Source: Pseudomonas saudimassiliensis
GTDB taxonomy: Bacteria > Pseudomonadota > Gammaproteobacteria > Pseudomonadales > Pseudomonadaceae
Assembly (NCBI RefSeq): GCF_000939975.1
Contig: NZ_LK391969.1
Location: 2,942,600 to 3,006,599, forward strand
Direction: 5' to 3'
Length of the DNA: 64,000 nt
Part shown: positions 6,203 to 17,851 of the stretch, piece by piece
Numbering within the stretch: the stretch's first letter is position 1
Layout: every line of letters begins with the position of its first letter
Position numbers and translations under genes: made by a program
The notes under the pieces: model-generated
The model's database searches: none
What the model was told of the DNA's origin: nothing
Seen by the model: only the letters and a program-made list of their open reading frames with translations

Positions 6203-6408
6203 CAGGCGCGTGCCGAGCTTTACTCCCCGGCGGCCAATGGATAATGTGAACAACATCATGTAATGGCAGTTCGCGGCATCCCAGGGACGGCGCTTCAAGA
6301 TATCGGCAGATCTGCTCTGCCAGTCACCCCACGTCCCTCTCATCCAGCGGCTGCCATCCCCGAATGCGGTTGCGCACAGCCATTCTTTGTGCGCGTGAGG
6401 AGTGTTGG

Positions 6409-8316
6409 ATGACTGATTTGGCTGAACTCGGCAGTGCTGTGCTGGCCGAGGTGCCGGTTGATGGCAGCAGTATTGGTAATCAGACCTTGTTTGAGCGTTT
6501 GAGAGCGCGCTTTCCTGAAGTGACGGGCGAACAGCTGTGGGCAGCGCGCGATGCCTTGGTCGAGCAGGGTGTGCTGGTCAAGGGGCGCGGGCGCGGTGGT
6601 TCGGTGCTGCGTGCCCAGAATACTGCGATGCATCTTACACCCGCTGCGCCGGCCGCTGCCGCGCTGGTCAAGGAGGTGTCGGCAGGTTATCTGGCCGAGG
6701 CCGTCCGCGCCGTCAAGGCCAAGCCCAGCAAGACTCAACCGGCCACCAGCATCGAGGACATGCAGAAGACCCTCTGGGCCACCGCCGACAAGTTGCGCGC
6801 CAATATGGACGCCGCCGAGTATAAGCACATTGTGCTCGGGCTGATCTTCCTCAAATACATTTCCGACAGCTTCGCCGGCCGTCGCACCGAGCTGAAAGGC
6901 AAGTTGCTGGATGAGAGCGACGACTACTATCTGGGCGACGATGATCCGGAAGTGCTCAATGCCGAGCTGGAAGACCGCGACTATTACCGCGAAGTGAACG
7001 TGTTTTGGGTGCCGGAGGTAGCGCGTTGGGAGTCGATCCGCGCCGCCGCCAAGCAGGTGGATATCGGCAAGCGCATCGACGACGCCCTGGCCGCCATCGA
7101 GGCAGAAAACCCACGCTTGAAGAACATCCTCGACAAGCGCTACGCCCGCGCTCAATTGCCGGACGGCAAGCTGGGCGAACTGGTAGACCTTATCTCCACC
7201 ATCGGCTTTGGCGATGACACCAGTAAAGCCCGCGACCTGCTTGGCCAGGTCTATGAATACTTTCTTGGCCAGTTCGCCAGCGCCGAAGGCAAGAAGGGCG
7301 GCCAGTTTTACACGCCGGCCAGCATCGTCAAAACCCTGGTAGCGGTGCTCAACCCGCACCACGGCAAGGTATATGACCCATGCTGCGGCAGCGGCGGCAT
7401 GTTTGTGCAATCAGAGAAATTCATCGAAGCCCACGGCGGCAAGCTGGGCGACGTGTCCATCTACGGCCAGGAATCCAACCCCACCACCTGGCGCCTGGCG
7501 GCGATGAACCTGGCCATTCGCGGCATCGACTTCAACCTCGGCAAGGAGCCGGCGGATACCTTTATACGCAACCAGCACGCAGACCTGCGTGCTGACTTTG
7601 TACTGGCCAACCCGCCGTTCAATATCAGCGACTGGTGGCACGGCAGCCTGGAAGGCGACCCGCGCTGGGTATATGGCACGCCGCCACAAGGCAACGCCAA
7701 CTATGCCTGGCTGCAACACATGCTTTACCACCTGAAACCCAACGGCCGCGCCGGCATCGTGCTGGCTAACGGCTCCATGAGTTCCAGTCAGAACAGCGAA
7801 GGCGAGATTCGTAAAGCCATGGTCGAGGCCGACGTGGTGGAGGTGATGGTCGCACTGCCCGGCCAGCTGTTCTTCAACACCCAGATTCCCGCCTGCCTGT
7901 GGTTCCTCACCAAACAGAAAACCGCCCGCCCCGGCGAAGTGCTGTTTATCGACGCGCGTAAACTCGGCACCAACGTCAGCCGAGTGCAGATCGAACTGAC
8001 CGACGCCGATATCGAACGCATTGCCCAGACCGTCGCCAGCTGGCGCGGCGAGCCGCTGGATGTCGGTGGCGAGATCGCCGAATACCAGGACATCCCCGGC
8101 TTCTGCCGCAGCGTCAAATTCGCGGAAATCGCAGAGCACGGCCATGTACTTACACCGGGCCGTTATGTTGGTGCCGAAGCGGTGGAAGATGACGACGAAG
8201 TTTTTGCCGAGAAGATGCAGAAGCTCGCCGAAAAACTGGGCGAGCAGATGCAGAAAGGCGCGGAACTCGATCAGTTGATCCGGCAGAAGCTGGGGGGGCT
8301 GGGGTATGAGTTCTGA
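6409..8316 (+). CDS. hsdM: type I restriction-modification N6-adenine methyltransferase subunit
   Basis: Modification subunit that, with HsdS, methylates adenine at the host's recognition sites. The 635-residue product has three parts. Residues about 1-75 form a winged-helix-like extension ([16 protein letters not shown]) found only in some HsdM proteins. An HsdM_N helical bundle follows ([20 protein letters not shown]). The N6 methyltransferase domain has motif I DPCCGSGG at 323-330 and catalytic NPPF at 401-404. The start at 6409 is set by GAGGAG 6 bases upstream; an upstream ATG at 6364 lacks one. Its end overlaps hsdS by 11 bases, implying coupled translation. Confidence 0.96.
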
Positions 8317-9622
8317 GTGGAAGGAGATAACTGTCGGTGAAGTGTCATTAGTTATTACAAAAGGTACAACGCCGACGACTGTTGGCCACTCTTTTAAAGA
8401 TGCAGGGGTGAGGTTCGTTAAAGTCGAGACATTGACTGATGAAGGCAGATTCATTGATGACAAGTTCGCATATATTTCTGAACAAGCCCATTCGATATTA
8501 TCTCGCTCGCAACTTCGAGAGAATGACGTTTTGTTTACTATTGCGGGCACGATCGGTCGCACAGGGATTGTGGGTTCTAGGTACTTGCCTGCGAATACGA
8601 ATCAGGCAGTCGCGATAGTTCGGCCGGTTACGGATATAATAATTCCGAAGTTTCTGCGATATGTATTTAGTAATCCATCTTTCACGCGGAACGCACAAAG
8701 TAAGACTGTCCAGTCTGTACAGGCGAATTTCAGCCTTGGGGAGTTGAGGAAGGCAAAGTTTTTTCTTCCTCCACTTAAAACTCAGTGGGCGATAGTCTCT
8801 TTGCTTGGCGCTCTCGACGACCGCATCACCCTGCTACGCGAAACCAACGCCACCCTGGAAGCCATCGCCCAGGCACTGTTCAAATCCTGGTTCGTTGATT
8901 TCGACCCCGTGCGCGCCAAGGCCGAAGGCCGCCAGCCTGAAGGCATGGACGCTGCCACTGCTGCCCTGTTTCCCGATAGCTTCGAAGAGTCCGAACTGGC
9001 CTTGGTGCCGAAAGGGTGGGGCTTCGGAGTATTGGGCGACCTTGCTGATCTTAACCCTGAGTCCTGGTCGGCCAAGCGTCGGCCTGAAACAGTGGCATAT
9101 ATTGATTTGGCAAATGCTAAGGAAAATGTGATCGCAGAGATTACAGACTACCCGTTTGATGATGCCCCAAGCCGGGCGCGTCGGGTTTTGCGTGATGGTG
9201 ACACGATAGTTGGCACCGTTCGTCCTGGTAATAGGTCATTCGCTTTTATTGCGAACGCGGCTGAGAATCTGACAGGCAGTACCGGTTTCGCAGTTTTACG
9301 TCCGAAATGCACCGAGAACACAGAGTTTGTCTACTTGGCGGCAACTTTAGACGCCAGTATTGATCACTTAACTCACATCGCCGATGGGGGTGCCTATCCG
9401 GCTGTACGGCCAGAGGTAGTAGCTGGATTGAGTACGGTGCTACCACCTATTCAGATCCTTATGGCATTCCATGAGATTGCTAAAACACTATTTGTGCGGC
9501 TTACTGAAAGTCATGAACAAGCCCAAACCCTAACCCAGCTCCGCGACACTCTCTTACCCCGCCTGATCTCCGGCAAGCTGCGCTTGCCGGAAGCCGAAAC
9601 CATATTGGAGAAGGCTCTGTGA
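8306..9622 (+). CDS. hsdS: type I restriction-modification specificity subunit
   Basis: DNA-recognition subunit, 438 residues, with the usual two target-recognition domains, each followed by a conserved helix. The first helix region is [20 protein letters not shown], leading to [18 protein letters not shown]; the second is [18 protein letters not shown], leading to [14 protein letters not shown]. Both recognition domains (about 8306-8790 and 9060-9500) are visibly more AT-rich than the conserved linkers, a mosaic expected from recombinational exchange. The recognition site cannot be predicted. It overlaps hsdM by 11 bases and the next gene by 4 bases (GTGA). Confidence 0.95.
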
Positions 9623-12111
9623 GCGACACCATCAGCCAATTATTCAAGGACTGGATGATTGCCACGGGCAAATCCAAAAACACCGCCAGCAACTACTTTA
9701 CCGGGGTGAATATTGTCTCGAAGCATTGCGGGCGTGATGTGTTCCAGATTGAAGATCTTCATGAACTGGAGCGACTCTACCGACAGTATGGCCCGAAGGG
9801 TGAACATGCAGAGGTCGGCACCAGCAACAGCGGTAATGTGCACAGCGGGCTCAGGCAGTGGCTGGAATATCAGCGACTGTGGCAAGCCGAAGAAGACCCC
9901 AGTATTGACCCGGTGGAGGGCCGCCAGCAGTGGCAGGCTTTTCTGGCGCGCTGGCCCGTGGACCAGCTGCGGGCTTTGACGCTGGACCAATACTACGGCG
10001 CCGAAGGCGATGATAGTTTTTATAGCTGGCTTCGTGACCATACGGCCAAGCTGGGGCACTTCAAGGAGGGTATTTTGAGTGCTGGTGTGCGCCCGCGTGG
10101 CCGCAATGCCATTGGCGAGCCGGGGGCAGGGATGCAGGCCGATGAGCGGTATATCTGGTACACCATTCTGGGCAATAGCGCGCAAGAAGCTTTTGAGCAC
10201 CTCAAGCAGGAATTGTTGATAGCTGTAGAGGCTGTGCGCAGTGGCGAGTTGAGTTCGATAGTTGGGCGCAAGACTGCACCGGGCGCGTTGGTCTGGAAGT
10301 TGATGTTTCTTTATCAGGACGAGGCCCGCCCACAGGTTCTGCCGTTCTACACAGTCAAGCGGTTGAAGTGGGTTGCGGGTGCTGATGCATCAGGTAGCCC
10401 TCTGGCGTTACAGGAGCGTTTGTTAAGTCAACGTGGCGAGCGGGACGTGCTGACGTTTGCTGCCGGTCTGGAGCGGCTGGCGATGAAGGCGCATACGGTA
10501 AAACCACTCAAGGAGAGTCCGAGCATGGACAGTTCTCTCGTGCCGCTTAACCAGATTCTGTTTGGCCCGCCCGGCACAGGTAAGACGTATGCCACTGTCG
10601 AGGCGGCGCTTGAAGTACTCGATCCCGATTATCTCCGCGAGCCGTTGCGTCACCGCAGCGAGTTGAAGCAGCGCTTCGATGAGTTGGTACAACAAGACCG
10701 CATTCGCTTTGTGACCTTTCACCAGAGCTTCAGTTACGAGGACTTTGTCGAAGGGCTACGCGCGACCACTGACGACGCCAGCGGGCAGCTGCGTTATGAA
10801 GTGGTGGATGGGGTTTTCAAGTCGTTGTGCGATGCTGCAGCAGTCAAGGTTACACAGCAGGCCGCCGCGCCGAACGAGCTGGACCAGCGCCGCGTCTGGA
10901 AAATGTCGCTGGGTAATACTCTGGGCGAGGATGCCAGCATTTACCAGGAATGTGTGGCCGGTGGTTATGTTTTGTTGGGTTATGGTGGAAGCGTCGATTT
11001 CGCCGGTTGCACCAATCGCCAGCAGGTACAGGCGCGCTTTGCTGATGCTGGCGTGGTGCCGGAGAACCCTGCTACGGATTACGGCATTACCAGCGTGACG
11101 GCCTTCGTCGCGAAGATGAGGGTGGGCGATCTGATTGTAGTGTCCGATGGCAACTTCAAGTTTCGCGCCATTGGCGAGGTGATGGGTGATTACCAGTTCA
11201 AGCCCCACGCTGAATTTGAAGATGGTTACGCTCAACTGCGACCGGTCAAGTGGTTGCGCCAATATCAACCGTCGTTGCCCCATACTGAATTGCTCAATGC
11301 CCAGTTCAGTCAGATGACCTTGTATGAGCTGCGCAGCCCAACCTTGAACAAGGACAAGCTGCAAGCGCTGTTGGCCGCTGGAACTGAAGTCAGTACTGCG
11401 CCTGATTCGCGCGTGCTGATCATCGATGAAATCAACCGCGGTAATATTTCCCGCATCTTCGGCGAGCTGATCACTCTGATCGAGCGGTCCAAGCGGGCGG
11501 GTGCTGATGAAGCGTTGTCGGTGGTGCTGCCGTATTCCAAGGAGCGGTTCAGTGTGCCAGACAATGTCTATCTCATTGGCACCATGAACACCGCCGACCG
11601 TTCGCTGGCAGGGCTGGATATTGCCCTGCGCCGGCGCTTCGTATTCCGTGAAATGCCGCCAAAGCCAGAGTTGCTGGATAGCGTGGAGGTGCAGGGGCTC
11701 AACATCGGCCAGCTGTTGCGGGTGATGAATCAGCGCATTGAGGTGCTATTTGACCGAGAGCATTGTCTGGGGCACGCCTACTTCATGCCGTTGAAAGAGG
11801 ACGCCTCGCTGGCGCGTCTGGAGGGTATCTTGCGCAACGAGATTTTGCCGCTGTTGCAGGAATATTTCTTTGACGACTGGCAGCGCATTCAGTGGGTTCT
11901 CAATGATCACCGTAAGCCAGTGATTGATCGCTTCGTGCAACAGGATACCCAGGATCTGGCGGGATTGTTCGGTGATATCAGCGTGCCTGCGCAGGGAGGG
12001 GTATGGCGGATCAATGATGCGGCGTTCAAACGGATTTCTGCGTATAGGGGGGTTCTCGGGGTGCCTTCCTCAGACGACATTCCCGCCGTGCTTGAGGAGA
12101 CGGGTGCTTGA
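9619..12111 (+). CDS. mcrB: McrB-like AAA+ GTPase/ATPase with inserted PUA/EVE-like domain
   Basis: Motor and recognition subunit of a type IV, modified-DNA-dependent restriction system, 830 residues. GTG at 9619 overlaps the hsdS stop codon (GTGA). Residues about 1-85 resemble the helical core-binding domain of tyrosine recombinases (KSKNTASNYFTGV). Residues 85-300 should read DNA but match no motif I know. Walker A is GPPGTGKT at 316-323. Residues about 422-575 (RVWKMSLGNT to FRAIGEVMGDY) look like an EVE/PUA-like module inserted in the ATPase. Walker B and the McrB-type DEINR begin at Asp603, GTMNTADRS spans 654-662, and LRRRF supplies the arginines. Domain limits are estimates by eye. Confidence 0.88.
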   Translation: MSDTISQLFKDWMIATGKSKNTASNYFTGVNIVSKHCGRDVFQIEDLHELERLYRQYGPKGEHAEVGTSNSGNVHSGLRQWLEYQRLWQAEEDPSIDPVEGRQQWQAFLARWPVDQLRALTLDQYYGAEGDDSFYSWLRDHTAKLGHFKEGILSAGVRPRGRNAIGEPGAGMQADERYIWYTILGNSAQEAFEHLKQELLIAVEAVRSGELSSIVGRKTAPGALVWKLMFLYQDEARPQVLPFYTVKRLKWVAGADASGSPLALQERLLSQRGERDVLTFAAGLERLAMKAHTVKPLKESPSMDSSLVPLNQILFGPPGTGKTYATVEAALEVLDPDYLREPLRHRSELKQRFDELVQQDRIRFVTFHQSFSYEDFVEGLRATTDDASGQLRYEVVDGVFKSLCDAAAVKVTQQAAAPNELDQRRVWKMSLGNTLGEDASIYQECVAGGYVLLGYGGSVDFAGCTNRQQVQARFADAGVVPENPATDYGITSVTAFVAKMRVGDLIVVSDGNFKFRAIGEVMGDYQFKPHAEFEDGYAQLRPVKWLRQYQPSLPHTELLNAQFSQMTLYELRSPTLNKDKLQALLAAGTEVSTAPDSRVLIIDEINRGNISRIFGELITLIERSKRAGADEALSVVLPYSKERFSVPDNVYLIGTMNTADRSLAGLDIALRRRFVFREMPPKPELLDSVEVQGLNIGQLLRVMNQRIEVLFDREHCLGHAYFMPLKEDASLARLEGILRNEILPLLQEYFFDDWQRIQWVLNDHRKPVIDRFVQQDTQDLAGLFGDISVPAQGGVWRINDAAFKRISAYRGVLGVPSSDDIPAVLEETGA

Positions 12112-13451
12112 GCGCACTCGTTAGCGTTCGTGAGTATGCTCGCCTGACAACGGCCGCTGTCGCGCCCGGCAACCTTGATTGCGCGCAAATTACCGAAAGT
12201 GCCTTCGAGTGGTTATGTGAGCTGAGCGCCAGCTTCAATCGCAACGGTGCCACGCTGCTGCAGCTGGAAGGACGCCGTTCGTTAAGGTGGGACTCCTACG
12301 TGGGTGTGCTGGAAACACCCTGCGGTACGCGTCTGGAGATTCTGCCCAAGCACCATGAGCAGGATGATTGCGTGCTGAAAAGCCGGCGTTTGCTGCGCAA
12401 GCTAATTCAGCACGGCTTGCAACTCAAACCACGCGAGGCGTCGGTGGCAAGCCTCGAATTGTTTGACGCCCCGCTCAGTGAGTGGGTGATGGGGCAGTTT
12501 CTGACGGAGCTGGATCTGCTGGTGAAACGTGGGGTGCGCTTCGACTATCAGCGTATCGAGGAGGAAAAGCGGTTCCTGCGCGGCCAGCTCAACGTGGTGG
12601 CGCAGATGCGTCAGCCACCGGGGCGGCAGCATCACTTTCAGATCCGCCACGATGTGTTTCTGCCGGACCGCCCCGAAAACCGCTTGCTCAAGCTGGCGCT
12701 GGAGCACGTAGCCAAAGCCACTCAGGATGCCGCCAACTGGCGTCTGGCCAACGAGTTGCGGGCGATGCTCGCGGAGTTGCCAGCCAGCCGGCAGGTGAGT
12801 CAGGACTTGCGGGCATGGAGCCGCGATCGGTTAATGGCGCATTACCAGGCGGTCAAACCCTGGTGTGAGTTGATCCTCAATCAACAGATGCCCATTGCAG
12901 TGACTGGCGAGTGGCGCGGCATGAGTATGCTGTTCCCCATGGAAAGGCTGTTCGAGTGCTATGTGGAAGGCTGGTTGCGTAAGCAGTTAGCACCTGCTGC
13001 GCGGTTAACCAGCCAGGCCAGCCGCGCTTACTTGTGTGAGCATGGCCAGGGGCGGATGTTCTGCCTGAAGCCGGATCTGCTGATCGATACTGCTGAGCAG
13101 CGCTGGATTCTTGATACCAAGTGGAAGCGGGTGGACACAGGAAAACCCGAGAAGAATTACGACCTCAGCCAGAGCGACTTCTATCAGCTGTTTGCCTATG
13201 GTCATAAATACCGCATCAACAGGGGTACGCCGAAGCTGGTGCTGATTTATCCCTATTGGTCAGGCCTGACAAAGGCGCTGCCCACGTTTGATTACGGGCA
13301 GGGGATGAGCCTGTGGGCTTTACCTTTTGACCTAGACAGTGATCGACTGTTGGATGCAGATGTTGCCGATATTCCGTTGGCCGGTAAGCACACCGATCAA
13401 GTAACCGTACAAGTAAGCGATCAAGCATATGCAGCAGCAATTGCCAGATAA
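12108..13451 (+). CDS. mcrC: McrC nuclease subunit
   Basis: Endonuclease partner of McrB. The 447-residue product has an N-terminal McrB-binding beta-rich region ([15 protein letters not shown]) and a C-terminal PD-(D/E)xK nuclease, seen as LKPDLLI followed by WILDTKWKR near residues 323-340. The apparent start is a TTG at 12108 that overlaps the mcrB stop (TTGA), a layout that favours translational coupling. It ends 11 bases before hsdR. Together with McrB it should cut DNA carrying modified bases such as methylated or hydroxymethylated cytosine; the exact target is not predictable. Confidence 0.92.
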
Positions 13452-13462
13452 GGCCGATAAGA

Positions 13463-16400
13463 ATGACTGAAGACCAACTGGAACAGGAAACCCTCGGCTG
13501 GCTGGGTGAGCTGGGATACAGGCACCTCTATGGCCCGGATATCGCCCATGATGGGGCCGATCCGGAGCGTGAGAGTTACCGCGATGTGCTGCTGAGCATG
13601 CGCTTGCGCTCGGCGGTGGCCAGGCTGAATCCGCAGATTCCAGCTGCGGCCCGGGAGGACGCAGTCAGGCAGGTGCTGGATCTGGGCTTGCCTGTGCAGT
13701 TGTCTGCCAATCGCCTGTTCCATCGACTGTTGGTCGGCGGCGTGCCGGTGGAATACCAGAAGGATGGTGAAACCCGCGGTGATTTCGTGCGCTTGATTGA
13801 CTGGGTCGATCAAGGCGCCAATGAGTGGCTGGCGGTCAATCAGTTCAGTATCCAGGGGCCGAAGCGTACCTGCCGGCCGGATATCATCCTGTTCGTCAAC
13901 GGTTTGCCGCTGGTACTGCTCGAGCTGAAGAACCCGGCTGATCTGAATGCGGATCTGGGCAAGGCTTTCAACCAGCTCCAGACCTACAAGGATGTGATCC
14001 CCGATGTATTCAACTACAACGAGATCCTGATCATCACCGATGGCAGCGAGGCGCGGATGGGTTCGTTGTCGGCGGACATTGAGCGCTTCTCGCGCTGGCG
14101 CACCATCGATGGGGTTACGGTCGATCCGCTGGGTGAGTTCAATGAGCTGGAGACGCTGATACGGGGTGTGCTGCAGCCGACGATGCTGCTGGATTACCTG
14201 CGTTACTTCGTGCTGTTCGAGGACGACGGCAGGCTGGTGAAGAAAATCGCTGGTTATCACCAGTTTCATGCGGTGCGGGCTGCGATTGAACAGGTGGTGC
14301 ATGCCTCGCGCCCCGGTGGCTCGCAGAAGGGCGGGGTGGTCTGGCATACCCAGGGCTCGGGCAAGAGCATCACCATGACCTGCTTTGCAGCGCGGGTGAT
14401 GCAGGAAGCGGCGATGGAGAACCCGACCATTGTGGTGATCACCGACCGCAACGATCTGGACGGCCAGTTGTTCGGGGTGTTTTCACTATCCCAGGATCTG
14501 TTGCGCGAGCAGCCGGTACAGGCTGTAACGCGCGGTGATCTGCGCGAGAAACTCGGCAACCGGCCCAGCGGTGGCATCGTTTTCGCGACCATCCAGAAGT
14601 TCATGCCGGGGGAGGATGAAGACAGCTTCCCGATCCTGTCCACACGCTCCAATATCGTGGTGGTGGCTGATGAGGCGCACCGCACCCAGTATGGTTTCAG
14701 CGCCACCTTGAAAGCGCCGGGCCTGCAGGCAGCTGAGCCCAGCGCACGTTATCAGGTCGGCTATGCCCAGCATCTGCGCGATGCTCTGCCTAACGCCACT
14801 TTCGTGGCTTTTACCGGCACCCCGGTATCCAGTGAGGATCGCGATACCCGCGCCGTATTCGGCGACTATATCCACGTCTATGACATGCAGCAGGCCAAGG
14901 AAGATGGCGCGACGGTTGCCATCTACTACGAATCTCGGCTGGCCAAGCTGTCGCTGAAGGACGTCGGTCTGGAACAGCTGGATGACGAGGTCGACGAGCT
15001 GGCCGAGGATGAAGAGGAAGACCAGCAGTCGCGACTCAAATCGCGCTGGGCGGCACTGGAGAAGGTCGTCGGTGCCGAGCCGCGGATCAGAAGCGTGGCG
15101 GCGGATCTGGTCGCGCATTTTGAGGAGCGCAATCACGCCCAGCCTGGCAAGGCGATGATTGTCGCGATGAGTCGCGAAATCTGTGTGCACCTGTACAACG
15201 AGATTGTGGCGCTGCGTCCGGCGTGGCACGACGATGATGCTGACAAGGGGGCGATCAAGGTCGTCATGACCGGCAGCGCGTCGGACAAGGCGCTGCTGCA
15301 ACCGCATATCTACCCGAGCCAGGTCAAGAAACGCCTGGAGAAGCGCTTCAAGGATCCCCATGACCCGTTGCGGCTGGTGATTGTGCGGGATATGTGGCTT
15401 ACCGGCTTTGATGCGCCTTCAGTACATACCATGTACGTAGACAAACCCATGAAAGGCCACAACCTGATGCAGGCCATCGCCCGGGTGAACCGGGTGTTCA
15501 AGGACAAGCAGGGTGGTCTGGTGGTGGATTACATCGGCATCGCCAACGAATTGAAGGCGGCGCTGAAGGAATACACCGCCAGCAAGGGCAGAGGGCGGCC
15601 GACGGTTGATGCCCATGAGGCCTACGCCGTGCTGGAGGAAAAGCTGGATGTGCTGCGGAGTCTGTTACACGGCTTTGATTACGGCGACTACCTGGCGGGT
15701 GGGCACAAGCTGCTGGCTGGAGCGGCGAACCATGTATTGGGGCTGGACGATGGCAAGAAGCGCTTCGCTGACAACGCCCTGGCGATGAGCAAGGCCTTTA
15801 CCCTGTGCTGCACCCTGGATGAAGCCAGGGCCGTGCGCGAGGAGGTGGCTTTCATGCAGGCCATCAAGGTGTTATTGACCAAGCGTGAGATCAGCGCGCG
15901 GAAGAAGACCGATGAAGAACGTGAGCTCGCTATCCGCCAGATCATAGGTAATGCTGTGGTGTCCGGTGAGGTGGTGGATGTTTTCGAGGCGGTCGGACTG
16001 GATAAGCCCAATATCGGCCTGCTGGATGATGAGTTTCTCGCCGAGGTGCGCAACCTGCCGGAGAAGAACCTGGCGGTAGAACTGTTGGAGCGGCTGCTGG
16101 AAGGGGAGATCAAGAGCCGGTTTTCCAGCAACCTGGCTCAGGAGAAGAAGTTTTCCGAGCTTCTGGACAGTGTGATCAAACGCTATCAGAACCGCTCCAT
16201 CGAAACCGCTCAGGTCATCGAAGAACTCATCGAAATGGCGAAGAAATTCGCTGCAGCCAGCAAGCGCGGCGATCTGTTGGGCCTGAACGACGATGAGCTG
16301 GCCTTTTATGATGCTCTGGCCAATAACGAGGCGTCAGTGCGCGAGCTGGGTGATGAGATTCTGGCGAAGATTGCCCACGAGTTGACGTCCAGCCTGCGGC

Positions 16401-16564
16401 AGAACGTCACCGTCGACTGGAACAACCGCGAAAGCGTTCGCGCCAGACTGCGCTTGATGGTCAAGCGCATACTGCGCAAGTACAAGTACCCGCCGGATCA
16501 GCAGGAAGAAGCAGCGCAATTGGTCCTGGCGCAGGCGGAGACGTTGTGTGAAGCGTGGCTTTGA
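13463..16564 (+). CDS. hsdR: type I restriction endonuclease/translocase subunit
   Basis: Restriction subunit of the type I system, 1033 residues, which translocates DNA using ATP and cleaves unmodified DNA. The N-terminal nuclease core has [10 protein letters not shown] and LLELKNP, giving the PD-(D/E)xK residues Asp140, Glu154 and Lys156. The SF2 motor has Walker A GSGKS at 298-302, DEAH at 403-406, FTGTPV, and late motifs [10 protein letters not shown] and AIARVNR. A C-terminal helical region of the DUF3387 type follows and should contact the methyltransferase. All catalytic motifs are intact, so the system looks active. It starts 11 bases after mcrC. Confidence 0.96.
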
Positions 16565-16627
16565 GGTGGTGGCAGAGTAGTATCTATCTGATGGGGAAAC
16601 GGCAGCCTTAGCGGGAAGTAAAGCGTA

Positions 16628-17851
16628 ATGGATATACGGCATTGGATTGCATTAAACAAAGAGAGGTTTGATAGCCCTTATGAGCAAATGTTCGCAGAGC
16701 GTGTGCTGGTGGGGGTGGATGGGCTGGATCTGAGTACGGTTGCAACCCAGTATCAGTTCAGGGATCTGGACAACAAGACCCGCTATTGCGACTTCGTCAT
16801 CCAGGAAGGCTCCATTCGTATCGCCATCGAGGTTGATGGTTACGACAAGAAAAACCGCGGAAGTGGCATGACTCATGAGGAGTTTGTCGATTGGCAGCGT
16901 CGTCAGGCTGCGCTGACTTCAGCTGGCTGGCATGTACTGCGCTTTGCCAACCGCGATGTATGTAATCACCCTGGTCGCTGTAAACGCTACATTGAACTCC
17001 TGCTCAGGGATCAGCGCAGCAAAAGCCAGCACCAGAGTAGCCTTGAATCAGCCATTGCCCAAATGAGTAGGGAGCTGGAAGCGGCCCAGCGCAAGGCGGG
17101 TACCGCAGACCAGGTGGGCCGTCTCACTCGACAGATCAATCTATTGAAAAACCAGTTGCTGATAGCGCAAAGCGCTCAGCCCCTGACTGAGCGTGACAGA
17201 CGGGAAATGGAACAACTGGTAACTCGGCTTGAGGAAGAAAACCGCGAGCTGAAACATGAAAAAAACAAGCTGGAAAAACAATCACAGATATTGGGTGGTG
17301 AGAATTCGACCATGAAAACAACCGTTTGGGCATTTACGCTGATTATCGGTTTTCTAATAGCGGCGGGGGCTTATGTATTAGGTGGGAGAAATAACAGCGT
17401 GCCGGTTACCGCCAATGTCTCGGTTGCCCCGCCCCAAACTGCGGTGTTAGCAGCTCAGTCTGCGCCTGTTGCTGCCCGGCCTCAGCAGATCGCAGCTTCG
17501 TCTGCTTCAACGGTATCTGCGGTCCAGGCTGGCCAGTCGTGCGCTGCGCCGATCGATTGGCGCAACGCACGAGATTTTGCTGATCAGGAGGTCGCCGTAG
17601 TAGGGCCGGTAGCAGAATATCGTTACATGCCAAACGTGAATGGCTCGCCAACCTGGATTAATCTGGGCACAAAGTACCCGCAGAAAAATCGCTTGGCGGT
17701 AGTGGTCTGGGGAGACGACAGAAGCAATTTCGGTGATGCGTTGACGAGCAATCTCGTGAATCGTCAGGTTTGCGTTATAGGCACGGTACAGATGCGTGAC
17801 GGTGTGCCACAAATAGCTATCAGCCAGCCGCAGAGCCTCTTAACCAAGTGA
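16628..17851 (+). CDS. membrane-anchored nuclease-like protein with C-terminal OB-like domain
   Basis: A 407-residue protein with an unusual build. Residues about 10-125 resemble a DUF559/Vsr-like PD-(D/E)xK nuclease, with Asp55 (RYCDFVI) and Glu68-x-Asp70 (AIEVDGYDKK) as likely metal ligands. Residues about 135-222 are charged coiled coil. A single membrane helix spans about 232-252, followed by an Ala/Pro/Val-rich linker. Residues about 318-405 (VAVVGPVAEY, WINLGTKYP, VVWGDDRSNF) look like the small OB-fold domain seen in some secreted nucleases. It follows hsdR by 63 bases on the same strand and is probably the last gene of the defence operon. Nuclease activity and orientation in the membrane are inferences. 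Confidence 0.7.
   Translation: MDIRHWIALNKERFDSPYEQMFAERVLVGVDGLDLSTVATQYQFRDLDNKTRYCDFVIQEGSIRIAIEVDGYDKKNRGSGMTHEEFVDWQRRQAALTSAGWHVLRFANRDVCNHPGRCKRYIELLLRDQRSKSQHQSSLESAIAQMSRELEAAQRKAGTADQVGRLTRQINLLKNQLLIAQSAQPLTERDRREMEQLVTRLEEENRELKHEKNKLEKQSQILGGENSTMKTTVWAFTLIIGFLIAAGAYVLGGRNNSVPVTANVSVAPPQTAVLAAQSAPVAARPQQIAASSASTVSAVQAGQSCAAPIDWRNARDFADQEVAVVGPVAEYRYMPNVNGSPTWINLGTKYPQKNRLAVVVWGDDRSNFGDALTSNLVNRQVCVIGTVQMRDGVPQIAISQPQSLLTK

Follow-up and report, generated by a model that had tools for sequence, protein, structure and literature searches.

A predicted membrane-anchored DUF559/Vsr-like nuclease with an OB fold, encoded beside a type I restriction-modification/McrBC operon of Pseudomonas saudimassiliensis

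Membrane-tethered defence nucleases are already known. SNIPE (PD-lambda-1), in which DUF4041 is combined with a GIY-YIG nuclease, is membrane-bound, cuts the DNA of phages while it is being injected and becomes toxic when deprived of its membrane helix (PMC13190303, in excerpt). ShdA (Shield) is a membrane-bound RmuC nuclease which lowers both phage release and transformation, and of which versions lacking the anchor could not be cloned (PMC10270631, in excerpt). Genes for ShdA have been reported inside type I restriction-modification (RM) loci of Pseudomonas, and the E. coli-type branch of McrBC is itself often linked with type I RM (PMC11090510, in excerpt). The family described here, in which a nuclease, a membrane helix (TM) and an OB fold are joined, is absent from PADLOC-DB 2.0.0. 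Its first member comes from a stretch of 64,000 nucleotides of Pseudomonas saudimassiliensis (contig NZ_LK391969.1 of assembly GCF_000939975.1, positions 2,942,600–3,006,599), referred to below as the window; all window features given are on its forward (+) strand.

The gene and the operon upstream of it

The gene (16628–17851) is an ORF of 407 residues with an ATG start, as originally predicted, and is supported by Pfam, AlphaFold2 and our own HMMs, which matched nuclease and OB in the one ORF. The order of its parts is nuclease, coiled coil, membrane helix, linker and OB fold. The sequence GGGAAG (16613–16618), which ends nine bases 5′ of the ATG, is a likely ribosome-binding site. Upstream and co-directional are genes for HsdM (6364–8316; N6_Mtase, E 9.8e-110), HsdS (8306–9622; Methylase_S, E 2.4e-17), a McrB-like AAA+ protein (9619–12111; AAA_5, with a match to NF008457 below its cut-off), a McrC-like protein (12108–13451; McrBC, E 1.1e-104) and HsdR (13463–16564; TIGR00348, E 2.6e-180), in agreement with the placing of the gene at the end of a defence operon. 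The hsdR stop and the start of the nuclease gene are 63 bp apart, and since neither a promoter-like nor a terminator-like site was found when this gap was scanned, the gene is probably co-transcribed with the type I RM/McrBC operon.

Two features of the operon itself may be recorded. The McrB-like/McrC pair sits between hsdS and hsdR of the type I RM operon (6364–16564), and HsdM carries approximately 130 extra N-terminal residues (6364–6762), its HsdM_N match beginning at residue 134. Low G+C content was considered as a mark of import and rejected: the nuclease gene (approximately 0.53) is no lower than hsdS (0.52–0.53), most of hsdR and the downstream DNA being at approximately 0.60, and low G+C therefore does not single the gene out.

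Domain architecture and predicted topology

The nuclease domain occupies residues 1–131 (16628–17020). Based upon profile, predicted fold and conserved residues the protein is a predicted DUF559/Vsr-like PD-(D/E)XK nuclease, the class to which it had been assigned at the outset. Pfam DUF559 (PF04480) matches residues 53–122 with 25.2 bits (E 1.5e-5), above its cut-off of 20.6, and is matched by 20 of 30 relatives at E up to 0.01; a MTES_1575 match of 25.5 bits is under its cut-off of 38.2. AlphaFold2, run on the whole protein with 27 sequences, gave a mean pLDDT of 85.4 and placed a mixed alpha/beta nuclease fold at residues 1–131 with pLDDT mostly over 90, residues 71–80 forming a weak block (average 57). 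VIA-align, run on Foldseek's own list of matches, aligned residues 12–131 with 3hrl [NGO0050; Z 10.9, rmsd 1.8, 92 aligned] and the nuclease with homing endonuclease I-Bth0305I [3r3p; Z 9.9] and the Vsr-DNA structure [1cw0; Z 8.9]. Structure prediction and fold search of the N-terminal part, proposed as the means of showing whether it holds a nuclease fold at all, thus found one.

Asp55, Glu68 and Asp70, singled out by the original prediction, are at those positions and are invariant in all 45 of the related nuclease ORFs described below. D55 (16790–16792) is a predicted metal-binding residue, while E68-x-D70-G-x-x-K74 (16829–16849) forms the predicted active-site core, of which G71 and K74 are likewise invariant (45/45), as is R92. 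The helix glutamate E19 (16682–16684) is conserved in 43 of the 45, with a gap in the other two, and D88 is Asp in 43 and Asn in two. The D...ExDG motif is common to 3hrl and the window nuclease; they differ in that the invariant Lys of the window relatives (K74) aligns, in the HMMER alignment, to a His of 3hrl.

A coiled coil or helical stalk follows (residues 133–231; 17024–17320). AlphaFold2 gave helices at 133–155, 160–182 and 188–251, so that the expected coiled coil is seen as long helices over residues 133–251 which run on into the membrane helix; coiled-coil-type matches were obtained in this region in both the Pfam and the PADLOC profile searches. The membrane helix is single, as had been claimed, but hydropathy (2.23 over 19 residues) sets its limits at 233–251 (17324–17380; also found by AlphaFold2) rather than 232–252. 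It is succeeded by an Ala/Pro/Val/Ser-rich linker (residues 253–298; 17384–17521) which is predicted to be disordered, with pLDDT below 50 nearly throughout.

The remainder of the protein (residues 304–407; 17537–17848) is a predicted periplasmic OB fold. The whole-protein model shows it at about 301–407, and when predicted alone it reached a pLDDT of 97.4 and a pTM of 0.89; our own OB profile also matches, evidence which is circular for the window OB. The OB-like tail of the original prediction was thus recovered by structure prediction and fold search of the C-terminal part, with limits of about 304–406 in place of 318–405. Its best-scoring matches are engineered protein-binding OBodies (10.6). 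The others are mostly nucleic-acid-type OBs, among them those of Asn/AspRS [5zg8; Z 10.1, rmsd 2.5], RPA [3dm3; Z 9.6] and RecG [1gm5; Z 9.0], and OB-type matches are also among the best 50 obtained by Foldseek with the whole model. DNA may be the ligand. OB folds bind proteins as well, and a shared fold shows no function; with a net charge of 0 for the window OB and of −11 to +8 for the fused OBs, DNA binding is not evident from charge.

Exactly two Cys residues lie C-terminal to the membrane helix in all 30 aligned full-length members, the corresponding part of the window protein being 156 residues long, whereas the number on the N-terminal side varies from 0 to 5 in the same 30. In the window protein these are C305 (17540–17542) and C382 (17771–17773). 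The first is found at two different places in two large clades, and the second, in a column at least 90% conserved, is nearly constant. A periplasmic disulfide would explain this pattern best. The N-terminal flank of the helix is also the more positive, with a mean K+R of 3.0 versus 1.33 on the C-terminal side; it is higher in 25 of the 30 members, equal in four and lower in one, the window protein itself being a tie (1 vs 1). Because of the two Cys in 30/30 and the positive N side in 25/30, we read the sequences as predicting the nuclease inside and the OB fold outside, which favours the cytoplasmic N-terminus originally suggested.

Secreted nucleases such as YhcR have an extracellular OB fold tied to the nuclease. 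Compared with that arrangement, as generally described, the window nuclease is predicted to lie on the opposite side of the membrane from its OB fold.

Relatives, distribution and neighbouring genes

Searches with our own profiles yielded 45 related nuclease ORFs, which fall into 39 clusters at 95% identity and are spread over 44 loci. The 44 exclude locus L078, in which the gene sits at the end of its contig and no nuclease ORF was obtained; L045 and L054 are one place fetched twice. The hosts are Pseudomonadota, Actinomycetota and Melainabacteria. The architecture is retained by relatives with 18–56% identity to the window protein, and 33 of the 45 ORFs include the OB fold. Full-length relatives are carried by plasmids of Polaromonas, Acinetobacter and Roseomonas, and a Vibrio relative from the plasmid search reads through to the OB fold. 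With 45 related nuclease ORFs and catalytic residues invariant in all of them, the suggestion that this might be a stray accessory gene was rejected.

The 12 ORFs without a fused OB fold comprise three which are broken or cut (L064, L065 and L067), one in L071 with a sunset domain (NF051437; 59.4 bits, cut-off 27) at its C-end instead, four from Vampirovibrio (three loci) and four on phage contigs. We considered, and rejected, that OB and nuclease are separate genes in L065: the two ORFs overlap and the second one lacks a signal-peptide-like start, for which reason this looks like one gene with its frame broken, as does L064. In L067 the nuclease ORF is cut short beside transposase-like ORFs. 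Among individual members, that of L061 (9890–10936) has an N-terminal CxxC...CxxC zinc-ribbon-like extension and that of L062 an additional N-terminal membrane helix. Two Roseomonas records, L004 and L044, carry the same nuclease-TM-OB gene (100% identity), and in L044 an IS5-family transposase lies between this gene and a NUC1 gene.

The distribution is patchy. No match was found in 57 related genomes besides the window's own. When the window protein was searched against the class as a whole, 6 of 368 other genomes matched, each of them only in part. Phylum-wide, 41 of 398 genomes matched; judged by match ranges, only G487 besides the window genome has both ends in one frame, the other matches being DUF559-only, OB-only or middle stretches. 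In the family of G487, 13 of 199 genomes match at E 1e-6, some through the OB fold alone. First scans of genome contigs and viral contigs with a narrower alignment gave no homologue, and second scans with a wider one gave 33 and four loci, respectively; these scans use short peptide patterns and therefore undercount. No homologue was found at E 1e-5 in annotated phage records. In a tree with four long end branches and a lack of resolution at several deeper forks, the window protein pairs with one from an Oligella metagenome-assembled genome (MAG) with support of 98/92. Since the nearest partner is that of Oligella, yet the 57 other relatives of the host gave no match, horizontal spread of the gene is likely.

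A general tie to hsdR, as the original prediction implied, does not hold. HSDR_N lies within 5 kb of the nuclease in 3 of 34 genomes (0.206 expected, P 1.1e-3), namely the window itself and two of one Acinetobacter lineage, a plasmid of which supplies a further hsdR-linked copy. The same domain order thus does recur beside other hsdR genes, in that lineage but not generally, and because hsdR is near in only 3/34 genomes the family is largely spread without a link to restriction genes. The closest relative, from the Oligella MAG, has mcrBC nearby. McrC was matched in 8 of 369 genomes, the window included; in six of the seven others, G127 with its partial match being left out, the McrC stretches contained no nuclease, OB or hsdR, though two of them are short contigs of 4.9 and 6.8 kb. 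Membership of the gene in McrBC is consequently not borne out.

In 19 of the 44 loci an OB protein of approximately 120 codons, mostly with a signal-peptide-like start (SP-OB), is encoded within approximately 1.4 kb. All 19, of which two are one place fetched twice, fall in a 28-member clade which does not contain the window; the partner is absent from nine of these 28, from all 13 members of the window's branch and from the four Vampirovibrio ORFs. In the Acinetobacter lineage the order is hsdS, nuclease-TM-OB, a TM-coiled coil-TM-OB protein, SP-OB and hsdR. The last two of these encoded proteins before HsdR are seen in L003 (2655–3851) and also in L047–L050, the TM-OB protein having a PF13742 match (E 2.6e-4) below cut-off. 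In the Psychrobacter locus L045 there is a TM-coiled coil-TM protein which lacks an OB. A Microbacterium plasmid (L042, 4671–5315) encodes a lipoprotein-like OB protein of the partner type without the nuclease, and here a type I hsdR lies approximately 2.5 kb downstream of the OB gene on the other strand.

Nucleases of exported families are found near at least 15 of the 44 loci, a lower bound since flank lengths differ and only part of the neighbours were scanned against Pfam. They are NUC1 in L002 (two partial pieces, which match only parts of the family profile), L004, L041, L061 (both sides), L064 and L069 (both sides); endonuclease I in L002, L053 and L072 (short); SNase in L074, L079, L107 and L108, the last three in one Vampirovibrio MAG; and EEP in L068, L070 and L076. 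Many of them, not all, have a signal-peptide-like start, judged by eye as for the OB partners; it is ambiguous in L004 and in one L069 copy, and in L053 it resembles a membrane anchor. The EEP nuclease beside L068 also has a sunset domain at its C-end. The window neighbourhood holds none of PF01223, PF00565 and PF04231.

In a genome-wide control of 34 genomes, NUC1 was near (5 kb) in three (0.065 expected, P 3e-5), SNase in two (0.126 expected, P 7e-3) and endonuclease I in two (0.026 expected, P 3e-4), values which are indicative because PF01223, PF00565 and PF04231 were picked after the neighbourhoods had been seen and the control was not blind. At 10 kb P was 2e-4, 0.023 (weaker) and 1e-3, respectively. 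The control covered these three families and HSDR_N, PF03372 (EEP) being left out, as were two of 60 HSDR_N rows (second pieces of a counted ORF) and one of nine Endonuclease_1 rows (below cut-off).

In the three Vampirovibrio loci (L079, L107 and L108) a DUF559-type protein ending in a small Cys-containing tail is followed by the SNase. The protein of L079 has one hydrophobic helix; in L107 the nuclease and SNase frames overlap, and its tail did not match sunset at E 0.1. Upstream in all three lie two further ORFs, one zinc-ribbon/HTH-like and the other HTH-like, which may mark a repeated mobile cassette.

Several copies have defence genes nearby: a CBASS operon (L074), type III-A CRISPR (L077), HEC-01A with McrBC (L075), AbiEi/AbiEii and DrmD (L071), and Hachiman HamA approximately 9 kb off with gamma-mobile-trio genes between (L002). 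The neighbours of many other copies resemble, by eye, ordinary core genes. The four phage contigs (L080–L083) each carry a version of the nuclease without OB. In L080, L081 and L083 the gene before the nuclease encodes 128 residues with a signal-peptide-like start, and late phage genes follow the nuclease. PHROGs identified a terminase in L080 and L083 and a portal protein in L080; the nuclease proteins of L080 and L083 were assigned to none of its families, nor were the two small partners in L080. These contigs share a three-gene set (L080, 9597–11550), which codes for the 128-residue secreted-type protein, the nuclease-TM protein without OB and a protein of 153–163 residues. Based upon the copies near CBASS, type III CRISPR, HEC-01A/McrBC, AbiE with DrmD and Hachiman, and upon those on phage contigs, the broader notion that this is a defence protein still stands.

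Proposed role and comparison with known systems

Our best explanation, on which we are evenly divided, is a bitopic inner-membrane nuclease which guards against incoming DNA, that of phages foremost. It draws on the domain order, the predicted fold, the conserved catalytic residues, the Cys pair and the neighbourhoods, with SNIPE and ShdA as precedents by analogy. The Vsr/DUF559-type nuclease would hang in the cytoplasm from its coiled-coil stalk, and the OB domain, with the disulfide holding it, would face the periplasm at the end of a flexible linker. When DNA threads through the inner membrane the OB domain would bind the nucleic acid as it comes in, or else the machinery of entry, assisted in many relatives by a secreted-type OB protein or nuclease; this would hold the nuclease at the point of entry, where the emerging DNA would be cut, and the membrane tether would keep it away from the chromosome. 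Part of this explanation, a point on which opinion could fall either way, is that the window nuclease is a system independent of the type I RM/McrBC operon. As an extension which we consider rather unlikely, the protein might be a two-sided envelope checkpoint for DNA which tells self from non-self by geometry, the secreted OB proteins and exported nucleases of several families being interchangeable outside partners of one conserved inside nuclease. The OB outside and the nuclease inside could be reached together only by DNA that spans the inner membrane, so that the chromosome, which is only inside, and free DNA, which is only outside, would both be spared.

The incoming DNA need not be that of a phage. 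The same machine might block natural transformation or conjugative entry, thereby shielding resident mobile elements from DNA taken in by way of the periplasm. Exported-family nucleases adjoin many copies, plasmids carry some of them, the periplasmic and extracellular nuclease Dns of Vibrio cholerae degrades transforming DNA (PMC7693049, in excerpt) and ShdA, besides acting against phage, makes transformation less efficient (PMC10270631, in excerpt). We nevertheless consider this unlikely, as the copies just before terminase and portal genes on phage contigs and the CBASS, CRISPR and other defence genes nearby fit phage better. Alternatively the layout of sensor, stalk and effector in a predicted bitopic protein might be that of a receptor which senses a periplasmic ligand through its OB domain, relays the signal along the coiled coil and sets the nuclease upon the chromosome in an abortive infection. 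Candidate ligands, which the OB and nuclease partners could make or present, are oligonucleotides that secreted nucleases release and the tail or tape-measure proteins of phages. The disordered linker between helix and OB fold (pLDDT below 50) is poorly suited to rigid signal transfer, no device for releasing the nuclease was noticed, and we hold such suicide to be quite unlikely.

We think it very unlikely that the protein serves the type I RM/McrBC operon as an accessory subunit, degrading HsdR- or McrBC-cut DNA at the membrane. Its position 63 bp past hsdR with no promoter- or terminator-like site found between, the three-gene module between hsdS and hsdR in Acinetobacter, the nearness of HSDR_N above chance (3 genomes, 0.206 expected), mcrBC near the Oligella relative and the ShdA genes of Pseudomonas type I RM loci (PMC11090510, in excerpt) speak for it. 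Against this, HSDR_N is near in just 3/34 genomes, of which one is the window and two are one lineage, and the six other McrC stretches, two of them contigs under 7 kb, are without nuclease, OB or hsdR. As little credence is due to a membrane-placed DNA repair or mismatch (Vsr) enzyme, or to a scavenger of nutrient DNA. The predicted fold is Vsr-like, and a Caulobacter DUF559 Vsr-like protein has been proposed for mismatch repair (PMC12907096, in excerpt), but repair has no need of a periplasmic OB fold or exported nucleases and would not be expected to be so patchily distributed (no match in the 57 related genomes), while scavenging leaves a cytoplasmic nuclease unexplained.

With regard to described systems, the window protein gave only weak matches in PADLOC-DB 2.0.0, within residues 111–250 (best E 0.0089) and to no Zorya or Kiwa model, and the open PMC literature searched yielded no named defence protein with the order nuclease, coiled coil, TM and OB, nor its partners. 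Within these two sources the original remark that no such named protein is known therefore stands. The DUF559/Vsr-like nucleases 3hrl (NGO0050), 3r3p, E. coli Vsr (1cw0) and Caulobacter VsrA (PMC12907096, in excerpt) have the catalytic fold in common with it; the window nuclease differs from these in being joined to a coiled coil, a membrane helix and an OB fold. Zorya and Kiwa also act at the membrane, at sites of phage injection, but unlike the window protein are multi-protein systems, consisting of the ZorAB motor with nuclease effectors and of KwaA/KwaB with DNA binding, respectively (PMC12904381 and PMC13190303, both in excerpt).

SNIPE resembles the predicted window protein as a single-pass inner-membrane protein with a cytoplasmic nuclease; its choice of self versus non-self by location and the varying N-terminal regions of its homologues are further likenesses (PMC13190303, in excerpt). 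It differs in its DUF4041 and GIY-YIG domains, neither of which was matched by the window protein in Pfam at E up to 1, and in having an N-terminal helix with nearly all of the protein in the cytoplasm, whereas in the window protein the nuclease comes first, the helix is at 233–251 and the OB fold is predicted outside. ShdA is likewise a membrane-tethered cytoplasmic nuclease with a coiled coil, found in type I RM loci (PMC11090510, in excerpt). Its RmuC domain, of which the same Pfam search found no match in the window protein, follows an N-terminal membrane helix, and an OB domain such as the window protein has is not mentioned in the excerpted descriptions of ShdA (PMC10270631, PMC11090510). 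Lacking the defining domains of both, the window protein at most works like SNIPE and ShdA. If our best explanation is true, a role is suggested for the unnamed OB proteins and exported nucleases of the same loci, and there would be a testable case that what marks DNA as foreign to the cell is its crossing of the membrane and not its sequence or modification. It would also make this a third nuclease family, unrelated to SNIPE and ShdA, to serve as a membrane-tied anti-phage weapon, and apparently the first in which a nucleic-acid-type domain is predicted to lie across the membrane from the nuclease and which has secreted-type partners.
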